Below, piece by piece: positions 28,215 to 41,499 of a stretch of DNA of 64,000 bases (the stretch's first letter is position 1; each line of letters starts with the position of its first letter). The stretch is from Agrobacterium vitis. GTDB taxonomy: Bacteria; Pseudomonadota; Alphaproteobacteria; Rhizobiales; Rhizobiaceae. The position numbers and the translations under genes are program-made. Below the pieces are notes generated by a model. That model saw only the letters and a list, made by a program, of their open reading frames with translations, did not search any database and had not been told where the DNA came from. The stretch is taken from the NCBI RefSeq assembly GCF_037039395.1, contig NZ_CP146242.1:3049001-3113000 (forward strand), written 5' to 3'.

Positions 28215-28766
28215 ATGAAGGGGATTGTTTTTACGGAAATGCTCGAATTCGTCGCCGCGACCTGGAATGAAGACATGGCCGACGACATTATCGAAGCCTC
28301 TATCCTTGCCAATGGGCTTGCCAGTGGCGGTGCCTATACCAGCGTTGGCACCTATGACCATCGTGAAATGGTGTCGCTGCTGGCTGCGCTGTCGCAGCGC
28401 TCCGGGCTTGATGTCGATGCATTGATGCAGGGGTTCGGACTGCACCTTGCGGGACGTTTCGCCGTGTTGTTTCCAGGCTTTTTTGACCGTAGCGCCGGTC
28501 TCTTCGGCTTTCTCGCCAGCATTGACGCCCATATTCATGTCGAGGTGAAGAAGTTCTATCCCGATGCGGAATTGCCTTCTTTTGAAATTCTCAGCCAGGA
28601 CGGTACGTCCCTGTCCATGCTCTATCGGTCCGGGCGGAACATGGAGGCCCTGGCGGAAGGCCTGATTCAGGGCGCTGCCCGGCATTTTGGCCGCACCGTT
28701 ACGATTGAACGCAGCCCGCGCGACGATGGGGCAACTTTGTTTGTGATCGTCGAGAGCGCATCGTGA
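28215..28766 (+). CDS. Heme NO-binding (H-NOX) sensor
   Basis: 183-residue soluble haem sensor. The N-terminus MKGIVFTEMLEFVAATW and GGAYTSVGTYDH are typical. The probable proximal haem ligand is the second His of HIHVEV near residue 108, and YRSGR near residue 137 is the YxSxR haem-propionate motif. The missing distal-pocket Tyr of O2 sensors cannot be judged by eye. Its stop TGA overlaps the start of the GGDEF-EAL gene by one base, so NO binding probably tunes cyclic-di-GMP turnover by that partner, as in characterised pairs. Confidence 0.93.
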   Translation: MKGIVFTEMLEFVAATWNEDMADDIIEASILANGLASGGAYTSVGTYDHREMVSLLAALSQRSGLDVDALMQGFGLHLAGRFAVLFPGFFDRSAGLFGFLASIDAHIHVEVKKFYPDAELPSFEILSQDGTSLSMLYRSGRNMEALAEGLIQGAARHFGRTVTIERSPRDDGATLFVIVESAS

Positions 28767-30301
28767 TGGTAAACCAGCCACGTGAGGTTTCCGATCCTGA
28801 GAGGATCGACCGGCTGACCCGCCGCCTGGAGCGCGAGCGCGAGGCCCGACGCCAAGCCGAGACATTGCTGGAAGCGCGTGCGCGTGAGCTTTATATGGCC
28901 AATTGCCAATTGGCCCGTCAGGCGGAAGATCTCGAACAGCGGGTCATGCAGCGCACAGCGGAACTGGTGCAGGAGCGCGAACGCGCCATGGCGCTGGCCC
29001 AGCAGGACCAATTGACCGGGCTTGCCAATCGCCGCAGCTTTACCGCGGTTTTGACAGACGCTTGCCAAAAGAGCCGCCTTCGAGGCGATCGTATCACCGT
29101 CGTTCTTGTTGATATGGACAGGTTCAAGCTGATTAACGACGCTTATGGTCATGAAGCGGGGGATGCGGTGCTGCGGGAATTTGCCCGCCGGCTGATGGTT
29201 GCGGCTGGACCTGGAACGGTGGCGCGGCTGGGGGGCGATGAATTTGCATTGATTCTCGACCACCTGCCGGATGTGACGGCCGATCATGCCTTTGTCTCGA
29301 GCTTTCGCGCCAGCCTGCAGGAGCCGGTTCTCTTTAATGGCAAGCGGTTGGAGGTCTCGGCGTCTATCGGATATGCGAGCCTGCCGGATCACGCCGCATC
29401 GTCCACCGAATTGCTGCGGCATGCCGATATGGCGCTTTACGTTTCCAAGAAAGCCGGGCTGTCACTGGCGACCGGTTTCGACGACGATCTCTGGGCCGAG
29501 GCCAATGAGCGCCGCTTGCTGGAACTGGAACTGGTGCTGGCCATGGACCGCCATGAAATCATGCCCTGGTACCAGCCGATCGTCGATGGAGCCAGCCGGC
29601 GGATATTGGGGGTGGAGGTGCTGGCACGCTGGCATCATCCCTATCGCGGTCTCGTGCTGCCGGGCGTCTTCCTGCCGCTGGCCGAAGAGCGCAATCTTCT
29701 GGATCGGTTGTTTGCCCAGGTCGCCCGCGCGGCCTGTGCGCAAACAGCGCCGCTGGTCAAGGCTGGCAAGCTCAACTACGTGTCGGTCAATATTTCCCCA
29801 AGTCAGTTCAAGTCCGGTAATCTAGCGATGGTCATCGCCTCCATCCTGGAGCAAACCGGTTTTCCCGCCACCGCGCTGGTGGTGGAGATTACCGAGGACC
29901 TGATCATGTCGGACCTGCTGCGGGCCGGGCGTGAGCTTGCAGAACTTTCGCGGCTCGGTGTGCGGGTTGCGCTTGATGATTTCGGCACCGGCTATTCGAA
30001 TATTTCCTCCCTCAGCAGCCTGCCGATCCAGTGGTTGAAGCTGGATCGCAGCCTGATCGGCCGGGTGGGGGATGACCGGGTTGGGCAGGTTATCGTTCAG
30101 GCCGTGCTGCAAATGGCCCAGGCGCTCGGCATCGATGTGGTGGCGGAAGGGATTGAAACGGAGGTTCAGGCGCGCTGGCTTGTGGATGCCGGATGCCGCA
30201 AGCATCAGGGTTTTCTCTATGGCCGCCCGGCACCCCTGGAAGACTTGCCGTGTTTCTCGCAACCGGAACGCCCAAGCCTTGCAACTGGAAGCAGCCCTTG
30301 A
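28766..30301 (+). CDS. GGDEF-EAL cyclic-di-GMP enzyme partnered with H-NOX
   Basis: About 511 residues. An N-terminal coiled-coil (ERIDRLTRRLEREREARRQA, LEQRVMQRTAELVQERERAM) is followed by a diguanylate cyclase domain with intact GGDEF in ARLGGDEFALILD, and a phosphodiesterase domain with EVL in place of EAL (GVEVLARWHHP), plus VVEITEDLIM, ALDDFGTGYSN and LKLDRSLI metal and loop-6 motifs. Both halves look competent. ATG 28766 overlaps the H-NOX stop; a GTG three bases upstream is also in frame. Confidence 0.93.
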   Translation: MVNQPREVSDPERIDRLTRRLEREREARRQAETLLEARARELYMANCQLARQAEDLEQRVMQRTAELVQERERAMALAQQDQLTGLANRRSFTAVLTDACQKSRLRGDRITVVLVDMDRFKLINDAYGHEAGDAVLREFARRLMVAAGPGTVARLGGDEFALILDHLPDVTADHAFVSSFRASLQEPVLFNGKRLEVSASIGYASLPDHAASSTELLRHADMALYVSKKAGLSLATGFDDDLWAEANERRLLELELVLAMDRHEIMPWYQPIVDGASRRILGVEVLARWHHPYRGLVLPGVFLPLAEERNLLDRLFAQVARAACAQTAPLVKAGKLNYVSVNISPSQFKSGNLAMVIASILEQTGFPATALVVEITEDLIMSDLLRAGRELAELSRLGVRVALDDFGTGYSNISSLSSLPIQWLKLDRSLIGRVGDDRVGQVIVQAVLQMAQALGIDVVAEGIETEVQARWLVDAGCRKHQGFLYGRPAPLEDLPCFSQPERPSLATGSSP

Positions 30302-33169: not shown

Positions 33170-35212
33170 TCAGGTCTCTATGCCGGACCATAGGCGCGTG
33201 TCGGGAAGGAGAGGCGCGTGCCTGTTCCACTTGGTGAGCTTTTCCCGGTAGCGCCGTCGATAGGTTTGATCGTCCTCGAAATCGATATTCTCCAGGGCGA
33301 ATTCAACACCGATCTCGTAATAGGCCTCCATATTGAGCAGTTCGGGCTTGGGTGTTTCGCCCCGTTCGCATTCACCTTGCATCTGCCAGAACAAGTGTTC
33401 GAGCCGACGGGCGAGGCCGGGCATGTCACGCAGGGCGCTGGTTTCGAACTGTCGGCTCAAGCTTTCCTTGATGGCTACAAGGCTCTGACGGTCCTGGGCG
33501 AAGGCGATTGCGCGCCGAACATAGTCATCCGGAGATTGGCAGATCAGCTCCGGCGCACCGGCAGATGCCACGACGCTGGCGCAGAAGCGCGATGCGAAGC
33601 TCTTGCCGGGGAAAGTCAGGACCGGCAGGCCCATGTTGATGGCGTCGGCGGCGGTGGAATGCGCACCGTAAGGGAAGGTATCGAGAAACAGATCAGCAAC
33701 AGCGATGCGGGCAAGATGTTGCGCATTGCCCGCCTTGGCCGCAAACAGCAGCCGAGCCGAATCGACGCCGCATCGGGTTGCCGTATCGCGCAGGCGCTGA
33801 TTGACCTCTTCGTTGCCGGACAGCAGCCAGAGCACGCTGCCGGGCGTTGCCTGCAGGATGGTCATCCAGCGGGTGAAGCCGCTTTGCGTAATTTTCTGCA
33901 TGCCGTTGAAGCAGGCAAAGACGAAGGCGTCTTCGGGCAGGCCCACTTCGCTGCGTGTCGGGCGCGGCGCCACTTTCCGCTTGCGATCGACCGGCTGGTT
34001 GCAGGCGATCCGAAGCACCTTCTCGGAATAATAGATCTCGTGTTCAGGCGGTACGATAAGATTGTCAGCAATCATATATTGATGGAAAGGGCTCGCCATG
34101 GAGCCGGGATAGCCGCAGAAATTGACGATAACCGGGGCAGGCCGATAGGCGAAAATCCGGGTTCTCGCATGCTTCGTATAACCGTTGACGTCGATCAGCA
34201 CGTCGATTTCATCGGCTGCGATCAGCCGGGCAGCATCGACATCGCTCAGCGCAAAAATATCGCGCCAGCCATCGACCGCCTGTTTGATGCGTTGCTGGGT
34301 TTCATCGGTTTCTATCGGTTCTCCGCAATAATAGGCGAACACTTCGATACTGGTCTTGTCATGTAATTCCAGCACTTCGCGCAGCGCAAAGCCGACCGCA
34401 TGGTCGCGCAGGTCCGACGACAGGTAACCGACACGTAACCGCTGGCCGGTTCCGGTCTTCTGGCGTGGCAGTTGGGGCGGTACGGCGCTCAGATCCGGAC
34501 GGCCGATCATTGTTTTGTTGCAGCGATAGGCTTTGGCCAGATGGAACAGCGGATCGTCTGAATAGCAGGAGATCGTCAAGGGCGACACTGCATCCAGCAA
34601 CTGGCGCATCGTGACATGGGGAGATTCTTGAAGGACCGGCCATTTGCACTGACGCAACCGTATGGCGGACCAATGCTGACCGGCTTCAGTCTTGTCGGGC
34701 CGCAGCTCGATTGCTTTCCACAGAGAGGCTTCAGCCTCTTCCATCAGACCGGCGTTTTCCAGCACGCGACCGATATGTTCCAGCACCATGATGCGATTGG
34801 CAAGCCGGTCAGGCGAAACATCCGCAGTCATTTCGGCATAGCTGCGCCATTGTTGCAGGGCATCGTTGAGCAGCCCGCTGTCTTCCAGAGACCTGCCCAG
34901 ATTGACATGGGCGGCGCCGAATTGCGGGTCAATCTTCAGGCAGGCGCGCAGAGCATTGATTGCCCCAGCCATATCGCCAAGCTGCCTCAAGGTGACGGAA
35001 TAGTTGAAATAGACCATATGCACCAGCGGATGGGCGCTGTTATAGGCGATCCAGACCTTGTAAAGCTCCATGGCCTGATCGACGCGACCTGCCCTGGCGC
35101 ATTGCTCGGCGACTTCGAACAACTTTGTCAGCGAGAGCTGTTGGGTGCGTGCCTGCTCTACGAAGTCGGCAGAAGGTGCAGCGATAGTCGATGTTACAAT
35201 GCCAGTGTCCAT
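33170..35212 (-). CDS. TPR-containing GT41 glycosyltransferase (O-GlcNAc-transferase/SPINDLY-like)
   Basis: About 680 residues. The N-terminal 200 residues are TPR repeats (LFEVAEQCARAGRVDQAMEL, FNYSVTLRQLGDMAGAINAL, AAHVNLGRSLEDSGLLNDAL). The rest is the split GT-B catalytic domain of family 41: RVGYLSSDLRDHAVGFALRE holds the conserved His, then VLIDVNGYTKHARTRIF, VNFCGYPGSMAS, FNGMQKITQ and LFLDTFPYGAHSTAADAINM near the donor site. These enzymes put single sugars on Ser/Thr. The neighbour on the same strand is a Ser/Thr-rich octapeptide-repeat protein, a natural substrate candidate. The start at 35212 follows GGGGTGG; 35239 is an alternative. Confidence 0.9.
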   Translation of the reverse strand: MDTGIVTSTIAAPSADFVEQARTQQLSLTKLFEVAEQCARAGRVDQAMELYKVWIAYNSAHPLVHMVYFNYSVTLRQLGDMAGAINALRACLKIDPQFGAAHVNLGRSLEDSGLLNDALQQWRSYAEMTADVSPDRLANRIMVLEHIGRVLENAGLMEEAEASLWKAIELRPDKTEAGQHWSAIRLRQCKWPVLQESPHVTMRQLLDAVSPLTISCYSDDPLFHLAKAYRCNKTMIGRPDLSAVPPQLPRQKTGTGQRLRVGYLSSDLRDHAVGFALREVLELHDKTSIEVFAYYCGEPIETDETQQRIKQAVDGWRDIFALSDVDAARLIAADEIDVLIDVNGYTKHARTRIFAYRPAPVIVNFCGYPGSMASPFHQYMIADNLIVPPEHEIYYSEKVLRIACNQPVDRKRKVAPRPTRSEVGLPEDAFVFACFNGMQKITQSGFTRWMTILQATPGSVLWLLSGNEEVNQRLRDTATRCGVDSARLLFAAKAGNAQHLARIAVADLFLDTFPYGAHSTAADAINMGLPVLTFPGKSFASRFCASVVASAGAPELICQSPDDYVRRAIAFAQDRQSLVAIKESLSRQFETSALRDMPGLARRLEHLFWQMQGECERGETPKPELLNMEAYYEIGVEFALENIDFEDDQTYRRRYREKLTKWNRHAPLLPDTRLWSGIET

Positions 35213-35426
35213 ATCCACCCCAGGAACAGTCGGCCACAAGGCCGGGTAACGACAGCAGGCATATGCCGATGGGCATCAGGCCTGACGCATAACACTTTTC
35301 CACGGTAAACGGGACCGCGATGTCATGCCTTGCCTTGGTAGCGGCATTAGCTTGCATCGGGCTTGACGAAGGATTGATGGCAAGAACACTGGCAAAACAT
35401 CGCATCTGGGCAGAATGGAAGCCTGA

Positions 35427-35461
35427 AAAAGTAAATGCGGCGCCTGGAGGAGGCGCCGCAT
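35427..35461 (-). terminator. Intrinsic terminator of the octapeptide-repeat gene
   Basis: ATGCGGCGCCT and AGGCGCCGCAT (35435-35445 and 35451-35461) form a perfect 11-bp stem around a five-base loop. On the minus strand it runs into TTACTTTTTC. It lies 56 bp after the repeat-gene stop and about 220 bp before the glycosyltransferase start, so the two genes are probably separate units or partly coupled by read-through. Confidence 0.85.
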
Positions 35462-35516
35462 CTGGTCTTGCTGTCGAGGGCTTTACAAGCGCGGCCAGAG
35501 CAGCGCCGATAAGCAG

Positions 35517-37076
35517 TTAGATGCTTTGATAGGCAAGGATGATGGCTTCAACCTGCGACGAGCTGAAAGCCTGGACCTGCGTGGTGGTCAGCGACTGCAG
35601 CTGCGTGCTGGTCAGGGCGCCGATATCGTCAGTTGTCAGGCCGCCGATTGACTTGACGCTGATCGCGGCAATATCGCCGGTGGAGAAGGTAACGATATCG
35701 GCGGTTTCCAGCGCAGAGATCTGCTTGGAGCTGAGGTTGGCCACCTGGCTGGTTGTCAGAGCTTCCGCTTGAGCAGTCGTCAGAGCCGCAACCTGGCTGG
35801 TGGACAGGCCGCCGATTGACTTGGTGGAGATCGACGCGACCTGGTCCGTTGACAGGCCAGCTACGGCATCGGTGGTGAGGACGCCAACCTGGGCTGAAGA
35901 CAGGGTTGCCACCTGGGTTGTTGACAAGGCAACGACCTGGTCGGAGGACAGGGCCTTGACCTGTGTGGTGGACAATGCGGCGATCTGTGCCGTTGTCAGG
36001 GCGGCTCCATCCGCGGTTTCCAGCGCAGCTATCTGGGTTGTGGTCAGGCCGCTGATGGACTTGGCGCTGATTGCAGCAACCTGCGTGCTGGAAAGGGTAG
36101 CAATGGCGTCGGTGGACAGGGCGGCGATTTGCTTTGCGCCGAGGGTAGCAACCTGGCCGGACGACAGCGCGCTGACCTGGTCGGTGGACAAGGACGCGAT
36201 CTGCGTGGTGGTCAGGCCGACAATGGTCTTGGTGCTGATGGCGGCGAGATCGGTGCTGTCGAGCGTTGCGACATCAGCCGTGTCGAGGCTGCCGAGCTGA
36301 GCCGAAGAGAAGCCGGAAATCTGCGTGGACGACAAGGCCGAGACCTGGTCGGAAGACAGGGCTTTGACCTGAGCGGTGGACAATGCGGCGATCTGTGTCG
36401 ACGTCAGGGCGGCTCCATCCGCGGTTTCCAGCGCAGCTATCTGGGTTGTGGTCAGGCCGCTGATGGACTTGGCGCTGATTGCAGCAACCTGGGTGCTGGA
36501 AAGTGCAGCAATTCCGTCGGTGGTCAGGCCAGCAAGCTGCTTGGCGCTAAGAGTAGAGATCTGACCGGTTGACAGCTGCGTGACCTGGTCCGTGGTCAAG
36601 GCGCTAAGCTGCGTCGAGGTCAGGCCGGAGACCGCTTTGGTGCTGATTGCCTGGATCTGGTCGGACGTCATCACCGCGATATCATCGGTGCCGAGTGCAG
36701 CGATTTGCGTCGCGGACAGAACTGAAACTTGCGACGACAACAGATTGGCTGTTTGAGTCGTGCCGAAATTGCCGATCTGGGAGGCTGTCAATGCGGCCAC
36801 AGCCTTGGTGCTCAAAGCGGCTTCCTGACCCGAGCTCAACGCGGTCAGCTGGCTGAGCGTCAGGCCAACGACGCCAGTAGCGGAAATGGCGCCCATCTGG
36901 TTTGTGTCCAGCACAGCCAGGTCTACCGTTTCGATTGCTGCGATCTGCTTGGAAGACAATGCCGCCACCTGAGTGGTCGACAGTGCAGCTGCATCTTCCG
37001 TATTCAGGGATGCGATCGCTGTGGTGGACAGCGCCTTGATTTGCGTAATGGATAACGACGAAACAATAGAAGTCAT
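35517..37076 (-). CDS. Octapeptide-repeat protein, 64 uninterrupted repeats, Ser/Thr-rich
   Basis: 519 residues. After a 7-residue start (MTSIVSS) the whole protein divides into exactly 64 octads of pattern h-[ST]-[ST]-x-[QDA]-h-x-A, such as LSTTQVAA, LSSKQIAA and ISAKSISG, with no loop or leftover. Octads of type IS.KSI.G recur every 7-10 units, giving a higher-order repeat. There is no signal peptide, transmembrane helix or Cys. A regular hydrophobic residue every eight positions suggests a solenoid, likely secreted by a leaderless route. A GT41 glycosyltransferase lies next downstream. No characterised family is recognised. Confidence 0.85.
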   Translation of the reverse strand: MTSIVSSLSITQIKALSTTAIASLNTEDAAALSTTQVAALSSKQIAAIETVDLAVLDTNQMGAISATGVVGLTLSQLTALSSGQEAALSTKAVAALTASQIGNFGTTQTANLLSSQVSVLSATQIAALGTDDIAVMTSDQIQAISTKAVSGLTSTQLSALTTDQVTQLSTGQISTLSAKQLAGLTTDGIAALSSTQVAAISAKSISGLTTTQIAALETADGAALTSTQIAALSTAQVKALSSDQVSALSSTQISGFSSAQLGSLDTADVATLDSTDLAAISTKTIVGLTTTQIASLSTDQVSALSSGQVATLGAKQIAALSTDAIATLSSTQVAAISAKSISGLTTTQIAALETADGAALTTAQIAALSTTQVKALSSDQVVALSTTQVATLSSAQVGVLTTDAVAGLSTDQVASISTKSIGGLSTSQVAALTTAQAEALTTSQVANLSSKQISALETADIVTFSTGDIAAISVKSIGGLTTDDIGALTSTQLQSLTTTQVQAFSSSQVEAIILAYQSI

Positions 37077-37584
37077 TGAGATGTGCCCCTTGGGTTAACG
37101 GAATGCCAACATCACCCTCCCACCATGGATTCTATCGGGTCACGACATGTCGTACCGTCGAATCAAATCGCATCAGAAGAGAAAATGCTACTCAGGACAT
37201 GGCTCGGATGAGCCGGCACGTTAGGAGCGCATCATGCATAAGAGCTCACAAAAGCTCTGATCCTACGTCAATTGACGATAACGTGTTGCAAAGGTGCATG
37301 TCGTTTCGCCAAAATTTGCCTTTAACATAGTCCATCTCCGTTCTGCACGAGAGATTGACCTATGCAATCATATGTACCCGAAGAATTACTAATTTTCATT
37401 TAATGAGGGATTTTAGAGTGAGGATGCAACTTCTGTTGCTAGCAACGTTATTTGTTCCCTGATGTCTCTCTCGGTGCAATTCTCAAAAAACATTGCACTT
37501 ATTGAATGTGTTTCTCGGAAATCGATTCTTGATAATAACAAATTCCAGAAATCCGCGTTATCTGGTGGAGATGTAGATCGCGGC
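37077..37584. other. Intergenic, promoter region of the repeat gene
   Basis: About 500 AT-richer bases up to the IS66 edge. No gene is visible. The divergent ORFs in it show no family features or ribosome sites. Confidence 0.45.
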
Positions 37585-37682
37585 GTATGCGGCGTCCACG
37601 CCCCATTGATTTTTCAGTTGCAGCGGCTTGATAGTTTTGCCTGGGGGCCGGATGTGAGCTCACCGATGAGTATCTGACGAGC

Positions 37683-39371
37683 TCATTGTGAGGCCTTGAT
37701 GCGGGTGGCATAGGCCCAAGGCATCAGGGCATCGATGTCTTTCACGAGGTGGCCGTTTGCGAGGCGGGTGAAGAGGTCGCAAAGATAGGCGTAAGGTTCA
37801 ACGCCGTTCATTTTGCAAGTGCCGATAAGACTGGCAAACCGAGCCCAATTGCGGCCCCCTTCATCGTGCCCCGCAAAGAGCGCATTGCGGCGGTTCATGG
37901 CCGGGCGGCGGATCGCGTTTTCCACCAGGTTGGAGTCGATATCGACATGGCCATCGTCCAGGAACAGCCGGAATCCGTCCTGTCGCGTCAGCATATAGGC
38001 CAGGGCTTTTCCGAGGTCAGATTTGCGTGAGACGCGCGCGGCCTGGGCTGCCAGCCAGGTGAAGAACTCCTCCACCAGCGGGAGGGACAGGTCCTGTCGA
38101 ACTGCCCGGCGATGTTCGGGGTCTGAGCCTCGGATACTGTCTTCGATCTTGTAGAGCGCGGCGATCCGCACCAACGCCTCGTCGACGATGGGCGATCCGC
38201 TCTTTGGCGTGGCCTTGATCAGCTTTCTGCGCCCGTGTGCCCAACAGAAAGCCAACTTCAGCGGAGCGCCGCCGATACGATCGGACGTAGCGAGATGAGA
38301 GTAACCGCCGTAGGCATCCACTTGGATTGTGCCGTTGAACCCGTCAAGGATCTCAGCGGCATATTCTCCTTTACGCCCGGGCCGATAATGGAACACCACA
38401 CCTGACGGAGCAGAACCATTCCAGCCGCGGTCGTCACGCAGCACGGCCCAGAGATAGCCGGTCTTTGTCTTGCCTCGCCCAGGATCCAGCACCGGGGCGG
38501 TCGTTTCGTCGACATAGAGGCGCGTGCTTTCCCACAGCAGCCGTTTGGCCATGTGGTCGACCACCGGTGCGATTTCGCTACCCGTGCGCCCCATCCAATC
38601 GGCCAGCACCGTGCGGTCGATTGGCACGCCGTGTCGCGCCATGACCTCGGCCTGACGGTTGAGGGGCATGTGTTCGGAATGCTTGGAGACGGCAATCTCC
38701 GCCAGAAGGGCCTCCGTCGGCCAGCTCCCTTCCAGAAGATGCGCCGGCGCTCTGGCCTGGACGACGCCGGTTCGACCCTTGGGGCATGCGTATTTCGGGC
38801 GGATCGTGACGATCACCTCGTAGCGCGCCGGGATCCGGTCGAGCCGTTCCGTCCGGTCCTCGCCGATCCGGACCATGTTGCCGCAACCGCAGGGACAAAC
38901 GATGCTATCGGGCTCGATCACGCGCTCGACCCGCGGCAGGTGTTCGGGCAGTGCACGGGCCTTGCGCTCCTTGCGAGAAACGGCCTTGTCCGGATCGCCA
39001 ACCTCTCCAGAATTGCCAGCCTTTTCGGGATCATCTGCGCTGGCTTCGATCTTCTTCTCGACGGCGGCGATCCGCGCCTGTGTTTCGGCAATCGCCGTTT
39101 CAAGGTCTTCCAGTGCCAGTTCCATCTGCGCCGGATCGAGCTTTTCCGATTTTGGCCCGAACTTCGTGCGCCTGTAGTCGTGAACCTGCCCCTCAAGCTT
39201 CTCGATCAGTTCCTTCAGCTCAGTGATGAACGCGTCCTTTTCGGCAACGACCGCCTGCTCATGCTGGCGTGCCGCACGCTCGACCGACAGTTCGAACTGC
39301 ATCGCCGCAAAGGCTTTGACTACCTCTGGCGGAAGGTCCGGAAACAGGCTGAGATCAATAGGTTGCGACAT
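37683..39371 (-). CDS. tnpC: IS66 transposase TnpC
   Basis: 562-residue DDE transposase. The N-terminal leucine-rich coiled region (AFAAMQFELSVERAARQHEQ) is followed by a zinc-binding block (IVCPCGCGNMV), the DDE core (LYVDETTAPVLDPGRGKTKT, VDAYGGYSHL, AFCWAHGRRKL) and the C-terminal IS66 tail (NAIRRPAMNRRNALFAGHDE). It is full length for the family. Confidence 0.96.
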   Translation of the reverse strand: MSQPIDLSLFPDLPPEVVKAFAAMQFELSVERAARQHEQAVVAEKDAFITELKELIEKLEGQVHDYRRTKFGPKSEKLDPAQMELALEDLETAIAETQARIAAVEKKIEASADDPEKAGNSGEVGDPDKAVSRKERKARALPEHLPRVERVIEPDSIVCPCGCGNMVRIGEDRTERLDRIPARYEVIVTIRPKYACPKGRTGVVQARAPAHLLEGSWPTEALLAEIAVSKHSEHMPLNRQAEVMARHGVPIDRTVLADWMGRTGSEIAPVVDHMAKRLLWESTRLYVDETTAPVLDPGRGKTKTGYLWAVLRDDRGWNGSAPSGVVFHYRPGRKGEYAAEILDGFNGTIQVDAYGGYSHLATSDRIGGAPLKLAFCWAHGRRKLIKATPKSGSPIVDEALVRIAALYKIEDSIRGSDPEHRRAVRQDLSLPLVEEFFTWLAAQAARVSRKSDLGKALAYMLTRQDGFRLFLDDGHVDIDSNLVENAIRRPAMNRRNALFAGHDEGGRNWARFASLIGTCKMNGVEPYAYLCDLFTRLANGHLVKDIDALMPWAYATRIKASQ

Positions 39372-39433
39372 GCCGCTTTATAGCAAAGCAGCTCAAAAAA
39401 TCCAAATAAAACAATAGAAAGACGGCCGAACAA

Positions 39434-39783
39434 TCATCCTGCCGCCGACGGCGCGGTCACCCGTTGCGCCATCACCCGCCGCCAGTCAAGACCTTCGAAC
39501 AAAGCCTCATATTGACCCCTGGAAAGACGCATCGTCCCATCCTGAACCTTGGGCCAGGCAAAGCTTCCATGTTCAAGAATTTTGTAAGTTAGCACCATTC
39601 CTGTGCCATCCCACACCAGGATCTTCAGACGATCCCCGCGCTTCGACCGGAAGATCACCGTCACCCCGGAATGCGGGTCCAGCTTCAACTCGGTCTGCAC
39701 CATCAAAGCCAGCGCCTGATGCCCACAGCGGAAGTCAACCGGACGGGTTGCGATCAGGATCGGCAGTCGTTGGCCCGCGACGA

Positions 39784-39787
<4 letters not shown>
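39434..39787 (-). CDS. tnpB: IS66 accessory protein TnpB
   Basis: 117 residues with LPILIATRPVDFRCGHQALA and FRSKRGDRLKILVWDGTGMV, the IS66 Orf2 signatures. It is required with TnpA and TnpC for transposition in characterised elements. The start overlaps the tnpA stop by four bases. Confidence 0.95.

Positions 39788-41499
<1,712 letters not shown>

Follow-up and report, generated by a model that had tools for sequence, protein, structure and literature searches.

Here we describe a candidate protein glycosylation locus in a stretch of 64,000 nucleotides from Agrobacterium vitis (assembly GCF_037039395.1, contig NZ_CP146242.1, positions 3,049,001 to 3,113,000), which we call the window; coordinates given without a locus label refer to it. 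Two genes on the minus strand encode an octad-repeat protein (35517..37076) and a glycosyltransferase of the TPR-GT41 kind (33170..35239), and the plus strand carries glf (40396..41499), the gene of a UDP-galactopyranose mutase. The initial annotation had proposed from the sequence that the first two genes form a dedicated glycoprotein system; glf is a member of the cluster that it missed. The combination of the three genes suggests a dedicated protein-glycosylation module that is testable in the laboratory.

The open reading frame (ORF) at 35517-37076 encodes the proposed acceptor. Its product of 519 aa consists of seven residues followed by 64 octads in a single unbroken register, just as the initial annotation had read it, and octad position 1 is L, I, F or M in 64/64. 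The runner-up among the alternative registers, which reads octad position 6, is hydrophobic in 58/64 and the remaining six in only 1-4/64, so the octad periodicity is far beyond chance. The claim that positions 2 and 3 hold Ser or Thr is true of most octads rather than all of them (51/64 and 53/64, respectively), and the final octad, IILAYQSI, is degenerate. The protein contains 81 Ser and 82 Thr residues and no Arg, Cys, Trp, Pro or His. Its self-identity, with lags tested up to 139 residues, has a maximum of 0.51 at 136 residues, that is, at 17 octads. A protein from A. vitis NCPPB 3554 is 97% identical.

The repeat already has a name in Pfam, PF20080 (ALTTAQ_rpt), which is matched with 344.5 bits against a curated cut-off of 26.4 (E 2.1e-105) in 21 stretches along the chain; our literature search found no paper naming ALTTAQ. 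An AlphaFold2 model based on an alignment of 20 sequences (mean predicted local distance difference test score, pLDDT, 92.8; predicted template modelling score 0.75) gives the structure prediction that the initial annotation had suggested: the protein is predicted to be an alpha-solenoid with one short helix (micro-helix) per octad, roughly at positions 2-7. The sole close sequence relative among solved structures, HeliScrew4 (PDB 9zem), has the same eight-residue pattern (E 5.2e-16 over 108 residues). It differs in being a 120-residue chain, apparently a design judging by its name and sequence, with no glycosylation context and with Pro at most position-3 sites of the alignment. The literature search found no paper naming HeliScrew or 9zem.

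ALTTAQ repeats occur in many proteobacteria: one survey found them in 28 of 398 genomes and another in 23 of 151 genomes of the window's family (group f1, taken as Rhizobiaceae; an evenly drawn sample that includes the window genome). The window genome itself (6.04 Mb; G000, contig C2) has one ALTTAQ locus. Long ALTTAQ genes abound in group f47 (G184, G194, G213, G252 and others), a family of proteobacteria with up to 564-779 first-look candidates in one genome and a full GT41 in none of six fetched stretches (L152-L157).

The proposed modifying enzyme is encoded 277 bp downstream of the end of the repeat gene, on the same strand, and its family assignment in the initial annotation proved right. 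It matches PF13844 with 230.3 bits against a curated cut-off of 25 (E 4.3e-68), and TPR_8, TPR_2, TPR_14 and others are above their cut-offs. The length of 689 aa is counted from the first possible start, a TTG; since an ATG follows nine codons further in, the true start is unsure. The model of the enzyme (mean pLDDT 91.9) has XcOGT, human OGT and SPINDLY (SPY) among its nearest folds, and the match to 2jlb_A has a template modelling score of 0.71 by query and 0.88 by target. The catalytic-site His and the UDP-binding Lys, H280 and K449, are invariant in all 30 rows of our GT41 alignment A2, and K449 is presumably OGT K842. H280 aligns with OGT H558 (numbering according to the excerpt of PMC3660302). 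The alignment also reveals a helical C-terminal segment of about 50-60 residues that is common to the 20 rows of the window's sub-clade and absent from the other ten.

There are ten GT41 genes in the window genome, and the other nine score 141-243 bits against the window enzyme. They lie on contig C2 near 693-698, 757-760, 1958, 3452 and 3632-3635 kb, several in tandem, and ALTTAQ is absent from the five 20-kb stretches that hold them.

Counting as orthologous a GT41 with 941 bits or more against the window's enzyme, we found it in 13 of the 151 family genomes, in each of them within 4.5 kb of an ALTTAQ gene. A would-be fourteenth orthologue in G001 (341 bits, 36% identity) was not counted. 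A search of contigs with the window's ALTTAQ protein yielded 46 loci, where the nearest GT41 is at most 350 bp away in 19, 959 bp in one and 4.2 kb in one; the other 25 have no GT41 in the stretch compared, several of these stretches being cut by contig ends. These loci were selected by ALTTAQ, and therefore the converse search was made with GT41 as the query. In 385 genomes of the class, the top three matches outside the window genome (552-607 bits), which come from outside the window's family and are more distant than the family orthologues, are all within 6 kb of ALTTAQ. The search for pairs that the initial annotation had recommended gave 16 linked enzymes out of 16 (13 from the family, the window's own included, and three from the class). 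The linkage extends to all 28 GT41s with at least 552 bits against the window's (window included), 16 of which were found by the GT41 query; L060 is from Solidesulfovibrio and the rest are from alphaproteobacteria. In two genomes whose first ALTTAQ locus had seemed unlinked, a further high-scoring GT41 is separated from ALTTAQ by 1.5 kb in one case and by a reckoned distance of about 14 kb in the other.

Other GT41 genes of the same 13 genomes behave differently. Among the 17 with surroundings fetched (of 30 counted), one is within 6 kb of ALTTAQ (Fisher p 1.2e-7). At the level of genomes, ALTTAQ is present in 13/13 with the orthologous GT41 vs 10/138 without it (Fisher p 5.7e-13, assuming independence). 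Around GT41s of at most 380 bits, ALTTAQ was found neither in 17 other stretches of the first fetch nor in 19 of the 20 stretches of the next, the exception, L213, having itself been selected for its ALTTAQ. Linkage was rejected as a rule for GT41s of lower similarity: in genomes where the ALTTAQ locus had seemed unlinked, seven of 18 extra GT41 stretches contain ALTTAQ (L257, L258, L259, L264, L268, L271 and L272). Ten of the 18 have a best GT41 of 363-459 bits, and ALTTAQ is present in three of these (L258, L259, L264) and not in seven (L260-L263 and L265-L267, L266 being only 5 kb long). The GT41 of L260 has 452 bits and no ALTTAQ in its stretch, so the ceiling of 380 bits for unlinked GT41s is not general.

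With 89 GT41s in the tree, 3 changes of the linked label suffice, vs a mean of 30 after shuffling. Linked enzymes make up a 38-row all-linked clade, a separate betaproteobacterial clade of 4 rows and a single isolated row. The pairing of a GT41 with an octad protein is recurrent and no local accident; to this extent the proposal of a dedicated system is strengthened. Four loci (L038, L041, L194 and L195) have two GT41s each, one from either half of the large clade. At L046, L053 and L193, the GT41 gene is flanked on both sides by ALTTAQ genes, all on one strand. A 472-residue metagenome protein with a GT41 TPR half in frame with ALTTAQ octads (P0060) was not relied on as a natural fusion, as it is possibly an assembly joint.

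The third gene, glf, is divergent from the ALTTAQ gene and is the proposed source of a donor, UDP-galactofuranose (UDP-Galf). It matches PF03275 (GLF) with 258.8 bits against a curated cut-off of 26.3 (E 4.5e-77) and is the sole copy in the window genome. Clustering of neighbouring genes found glf in ten loci. Among the family genomes, 35 of 151 have glf. Each of the 13 genomes with the orthologous GT41 has exactly one, clustered with GT41 and ALTTAQ in a span of 4.3-13.5 kb (in G017 measured to the nearer GT41; in two genomes ALTTAQ is truncated where the contig stops), vs glf in 22 of the 138 genomes without this GT41 (Fisher p 7.4e-10). If only ALTTAQ-bearing genomes are compared, glf is present in 13/13 with GT41 vs 1/10 without (p 1.2e-5); both tests assume independence. 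Less tied to descent than these tests is the retention of the cluster through five different gene orders and orientations. In five loci the GT41 stop and the glf start overlap by 4 bp (ATGA), according to ORF coordinates in L119, L121, L135 and L213 and to a reading of the junction in L127. Beyond the sample, all three genes are together in the L023 genome, and in the L021 genome GT41 and glf adjoin.

Residues of the donor site were compared in alignment A2. There, 13 residues are common to the ten glf-linked rows and absent from all 20 others. Four of them, A285, F374, C375 and S528, correspond by alignment to OGT L563, W652, L653 and T921, at or next to the donor site (numbering from the excerpt of PMC3660302, L653 directly and the others counted on from numbered neighbours). 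The same source states that OGT Leu653 and His920 contact the sugar. OGT Cys917 is proposed to set donor size (excerpt of PMC9715652); the window enzyme has Tyr524 instead of a Cys of the human OGT type at this position, as does XcOGT according to that excerpt. These changes fit a donor other than UDP-GlcNAc. They do not identify galactofuranose, the case for which rests on glf.

Taken together, the gene content suggests the following mechanism. The GT41 enzyme would bind the ALTTAQ solenoid in the cytoplasm and transfer single sugars to a Ser or Thr early in each micro-helix, octad position 3 being the likeliest site. The family of the window would probably use as donor UDP-Galf made by the product of the clustered glf, in which case the product would be a rod with galactofuranose at regular spacing; other bacteria with the pair would probably use other donors. 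That GT41 and the ALTTAQ protein are enzyme and substrate seems to us quite probable from the genomic pattern. For a dedicated cytoplasmic O-glycosylation module acting on octad Ser/Thr with UDP-Galf as the probable family donor, the chances appear even, and galactofuranose as the donor likewise takes about half of the whole. A fuller version is a little more tentative: the enzyme would be an O-galactofuranosyltransferase that is fed by operon-coupled Glf and decorates octad after octad into a periodic rod, and bacteria would have recruited GT41s for the ALTTAQ scaffold at least twice, with different donors.

A less likely possibility, though the most serious of the alternatives, is that GT41 glycosylates the ALTTAQ protein with another donor, such as UDP-Gal or UDP-Glc, and that glf is a passenger of the cluster that works for a separate surface polysaccharide. 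The 22 checked linked loci outside the family have the pair without glf, and glf must have other uses, since 22 of 138 family genomes have it without this GT41. GT41-like enzymes are described as using UDP-GlcNAc, GDP-fucose and UDP-glucose (excerpt of PMC9715652) and, in the case of FlmG, pseudaminic acid (excerpt of PMC7591256); the passages found on galactofuranose with GT41 include none describing a GT41 that uses UDP-Galf. Against this reading stand the presence of glf in all 13 genomes with the enzyme, the stop-start overlap in five and the conservation of the cluster through five gene orders. In a Hyphomicrobiales metagenome-assembled genome outside the sample (L027 genome, L268), whose GT41 has only 314 bits, ALTTAQ and GT41 are likewise accompanied by a more distant glf. 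Genes for sugar-nucleotide dehydratases or epimerases lie near GT41 at L028 (3313-4362), L029 (19236-20315) and L194 (8872-9828), and perhaps make other donors in bacteria without a clustered glf.

If the sugar is attached to position 3, the Ser/Thr share of this position should depend on the enzyme, and that of position 2, which presumably acts as a helix cap, should not. Within the family, the position-3 share ranges from 0.61 to 0.90 across 13 linked stretches and from 0.59 to 0.85 across seven second ALTTAQ stretches located away from the enzyme in enzyme-bearing genomes, and it is 0.25-0.62 in seven of the ten genomes without the enzyme. The octads of the three other genomes were not numerous enough, and the comparison excludes L147, an additional stretch of 20 octads (0.50) in one of the seven. 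Against the genomes without the enzyme, one-sided Mann-Whitney tests gave p 2.6e-5 for the linked and 0.003 for the second stretches at position 3, and p 0.94 at position 2. G145 and G103, which lie inside the enzyme-bearing clade and have no enzyme, show 0.25 and 0.31. Position 3 is thus the probable acceptor within this family, as its Ser/Thr share is higher with the enzyme; as a rule for all bacteria this was rejected, since it fails outside the family. Ser/Thr richness alone is weak evidence of glycosylation and was rejected as such, because position 2 is equally rich in family genomes without the enzyme.

In the L021 genome, where GT41 is 14 kb away, position 3 is at 0.82. In the L023 genome the GT41 match (L257 10608-12278) and the adjoining ALTTAQ gene (L257 13784-16601) are each split over two overlapping frames, with 0.41-0.45 at position 3 in the ALTTAQ frames. 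This is possibly decay, with which the locus is in keeping, and a sequencing error could also account for it.

It is improbable, in our estimate, that the two proteins are not enzyme and substrate at all, and that GT41, glf and the repeat protein merely share a surface or matrix island in which GT41 acts on another protein or glycan. The independence of position 2 from the enzyme and the frequency of ALTTAQ without the enzyme would agree with this, as would HeliScrew4, whose Ser/Thr at position 2 without such a partner implies that hydroxyl residues can be structural. But an island should have further recurring members, and neighbour clustering found no widely shared gene besides GT41, genes resembling type I secretion systems, and glf. 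Moreover, at least two GT41 clades acquired the linkage, and in the family position 3 tracks the enzyme even in second ALTTAQ genes away from it. A chance neighbourhood, meaningless in a genome with ten GT41 genes in 6.04 Mb, can hardly be credited and is already contradicted by the linkage of 13/13 orthologues and the three best class-level homologues, as well as by linkage in genomes with only one GT41 gene in the family search (G045, G057, G075 and G138).

Several observations weigh against the proposed module with UDP-Galf as its donor. The initial annotation had accepted that repeat homologues in genomes without a neighbouring GT41 would speak against the pairing, and this is partly the case: 10 of 23 ALTTAQ-bearing family genomes have no orthologous GT41. 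It follows that the enzyme goes with the repeat protein and not the reverse. On an rpoB tree the 13 GT41-bearing genomes form one clade with G145 and G103 nested inside, so independence fails and the Fisher tests overstate the associations. Of three independent contrasts on this tree two are supported; in them position 3 behaves as predicted in 2/2 and glf in 1/2, with no difference in the other, where G103 keeps glf elsewhere. A position-3 share of 0.62 is reached by G105, which has no enzyme, and one of 0.98 can be reached outside the family where the stretch has no GT41 (L024, L026). The ten glf-linked rows are one clade, so their shared donor-site residues may reflect descent only. No glf was found in any of the 22 linked loci outside the family within the stretches checked. 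In the window, glf is on the opposite strand, and an IS66-type element (37580-40325; tnpC, tnpB and tnpA-like ORFs) lies between the divergent ALTTAQ and glf genes. It may separate glf from its promoter in this strain; A. vitis CG78 (L019) has no IS66 element there, and ALTTAQ and glf are 552 bp apart.

GT41 enzymes encoded with their own substrate gene are already known, as described in the excerpts cited here. HMW1C of Haemophilus influenzae is likewise a cytoplasmic GT41-family enzyme that adds single UDP-linked sugars to one large secreted partner, the HMW1 adhesin, but it is N-linking to Asn, has an AAD fold instead of TPRs and belongs to two-partner secretion (excerpt of PMC3983070). The window enzyme scores 24.8 bits against the HMW1C-like N-glucosyltransferase model NF049992, which has a cut-off of 1000. 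FlmG of Caulobacter crescentus is a soluble O-linking enzyme dedicated to flagellins, with a substrate-binding N-terminal TPR and a C-terminal GT-B transferase (excerpt of PMC7591256). It differs in using flagellins and pseudaminic acid, whereas the substrate and donor in the window would be a repeat solenoid and, judging from the gene context, probably UDP-Galf. In Enterobacteriaceae, flagellin glycosylation islands also combine GT41 genes with sugar-nucleotide genes, and one type of island, present in 2 strains, includes galactofuranose synthesis, though the excerpt does not state that GT41 is in that same island (PMC4875605). There, flagellin is the substrate; in the window, a scan of nine neighbouring ORFs found none. 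OGT, XcOGT and SPY have the TPR and GT41 architecture of the window enzyme but, as far as this analysis shows, are not paired with a repeat protein, and OGT also differs at Cys917 and further donor-site positions. New here are the proposed ALTTAQ substrate, the GT41 clade with the C-terminal segment and the coupling to glf. If the reading is true, a dedicated enzyme would be the first biochemical role for the ALTTAQ family, the clustered glf points to a donor that can be tested, and the octads offer a regular, countable acceptor array. With UDP-Galf as the donor, a furanose would be added to GT41 donors and a compact three-gene system would be available for the study of donor and acceptor choice.

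The surface exposure raised in the initial annotation found no support at the locus: no HlyD- or HlyB-like cluster member was detected at window positions 20001-50000. Type I secretion genes stand beside some homologues elsewhere, and by this analogy the window protein may be exported. Among 91 stretches compared, the HlyD-like cluster is present in 14 and the HlyB-like one in 11; Pfam identifies OEP, HlyD and ABC at L148, HlyD and ABC at L194, and ABC only at L037. Just three genomes, of 25 searched, encode a PF12248-domain protein some 430 residues long, placed between GT41 and glf (L125 14945-16270, L128 5994-7280, and L140). Elsewhere in the window, at 28215-30301, two genes that probably form a nitric-oxide-sensing cyclic-di-GMP pair share 4 bp; one is a haem-NO-binding (HNOB) gene and the other a GGDEF-EAL gene.

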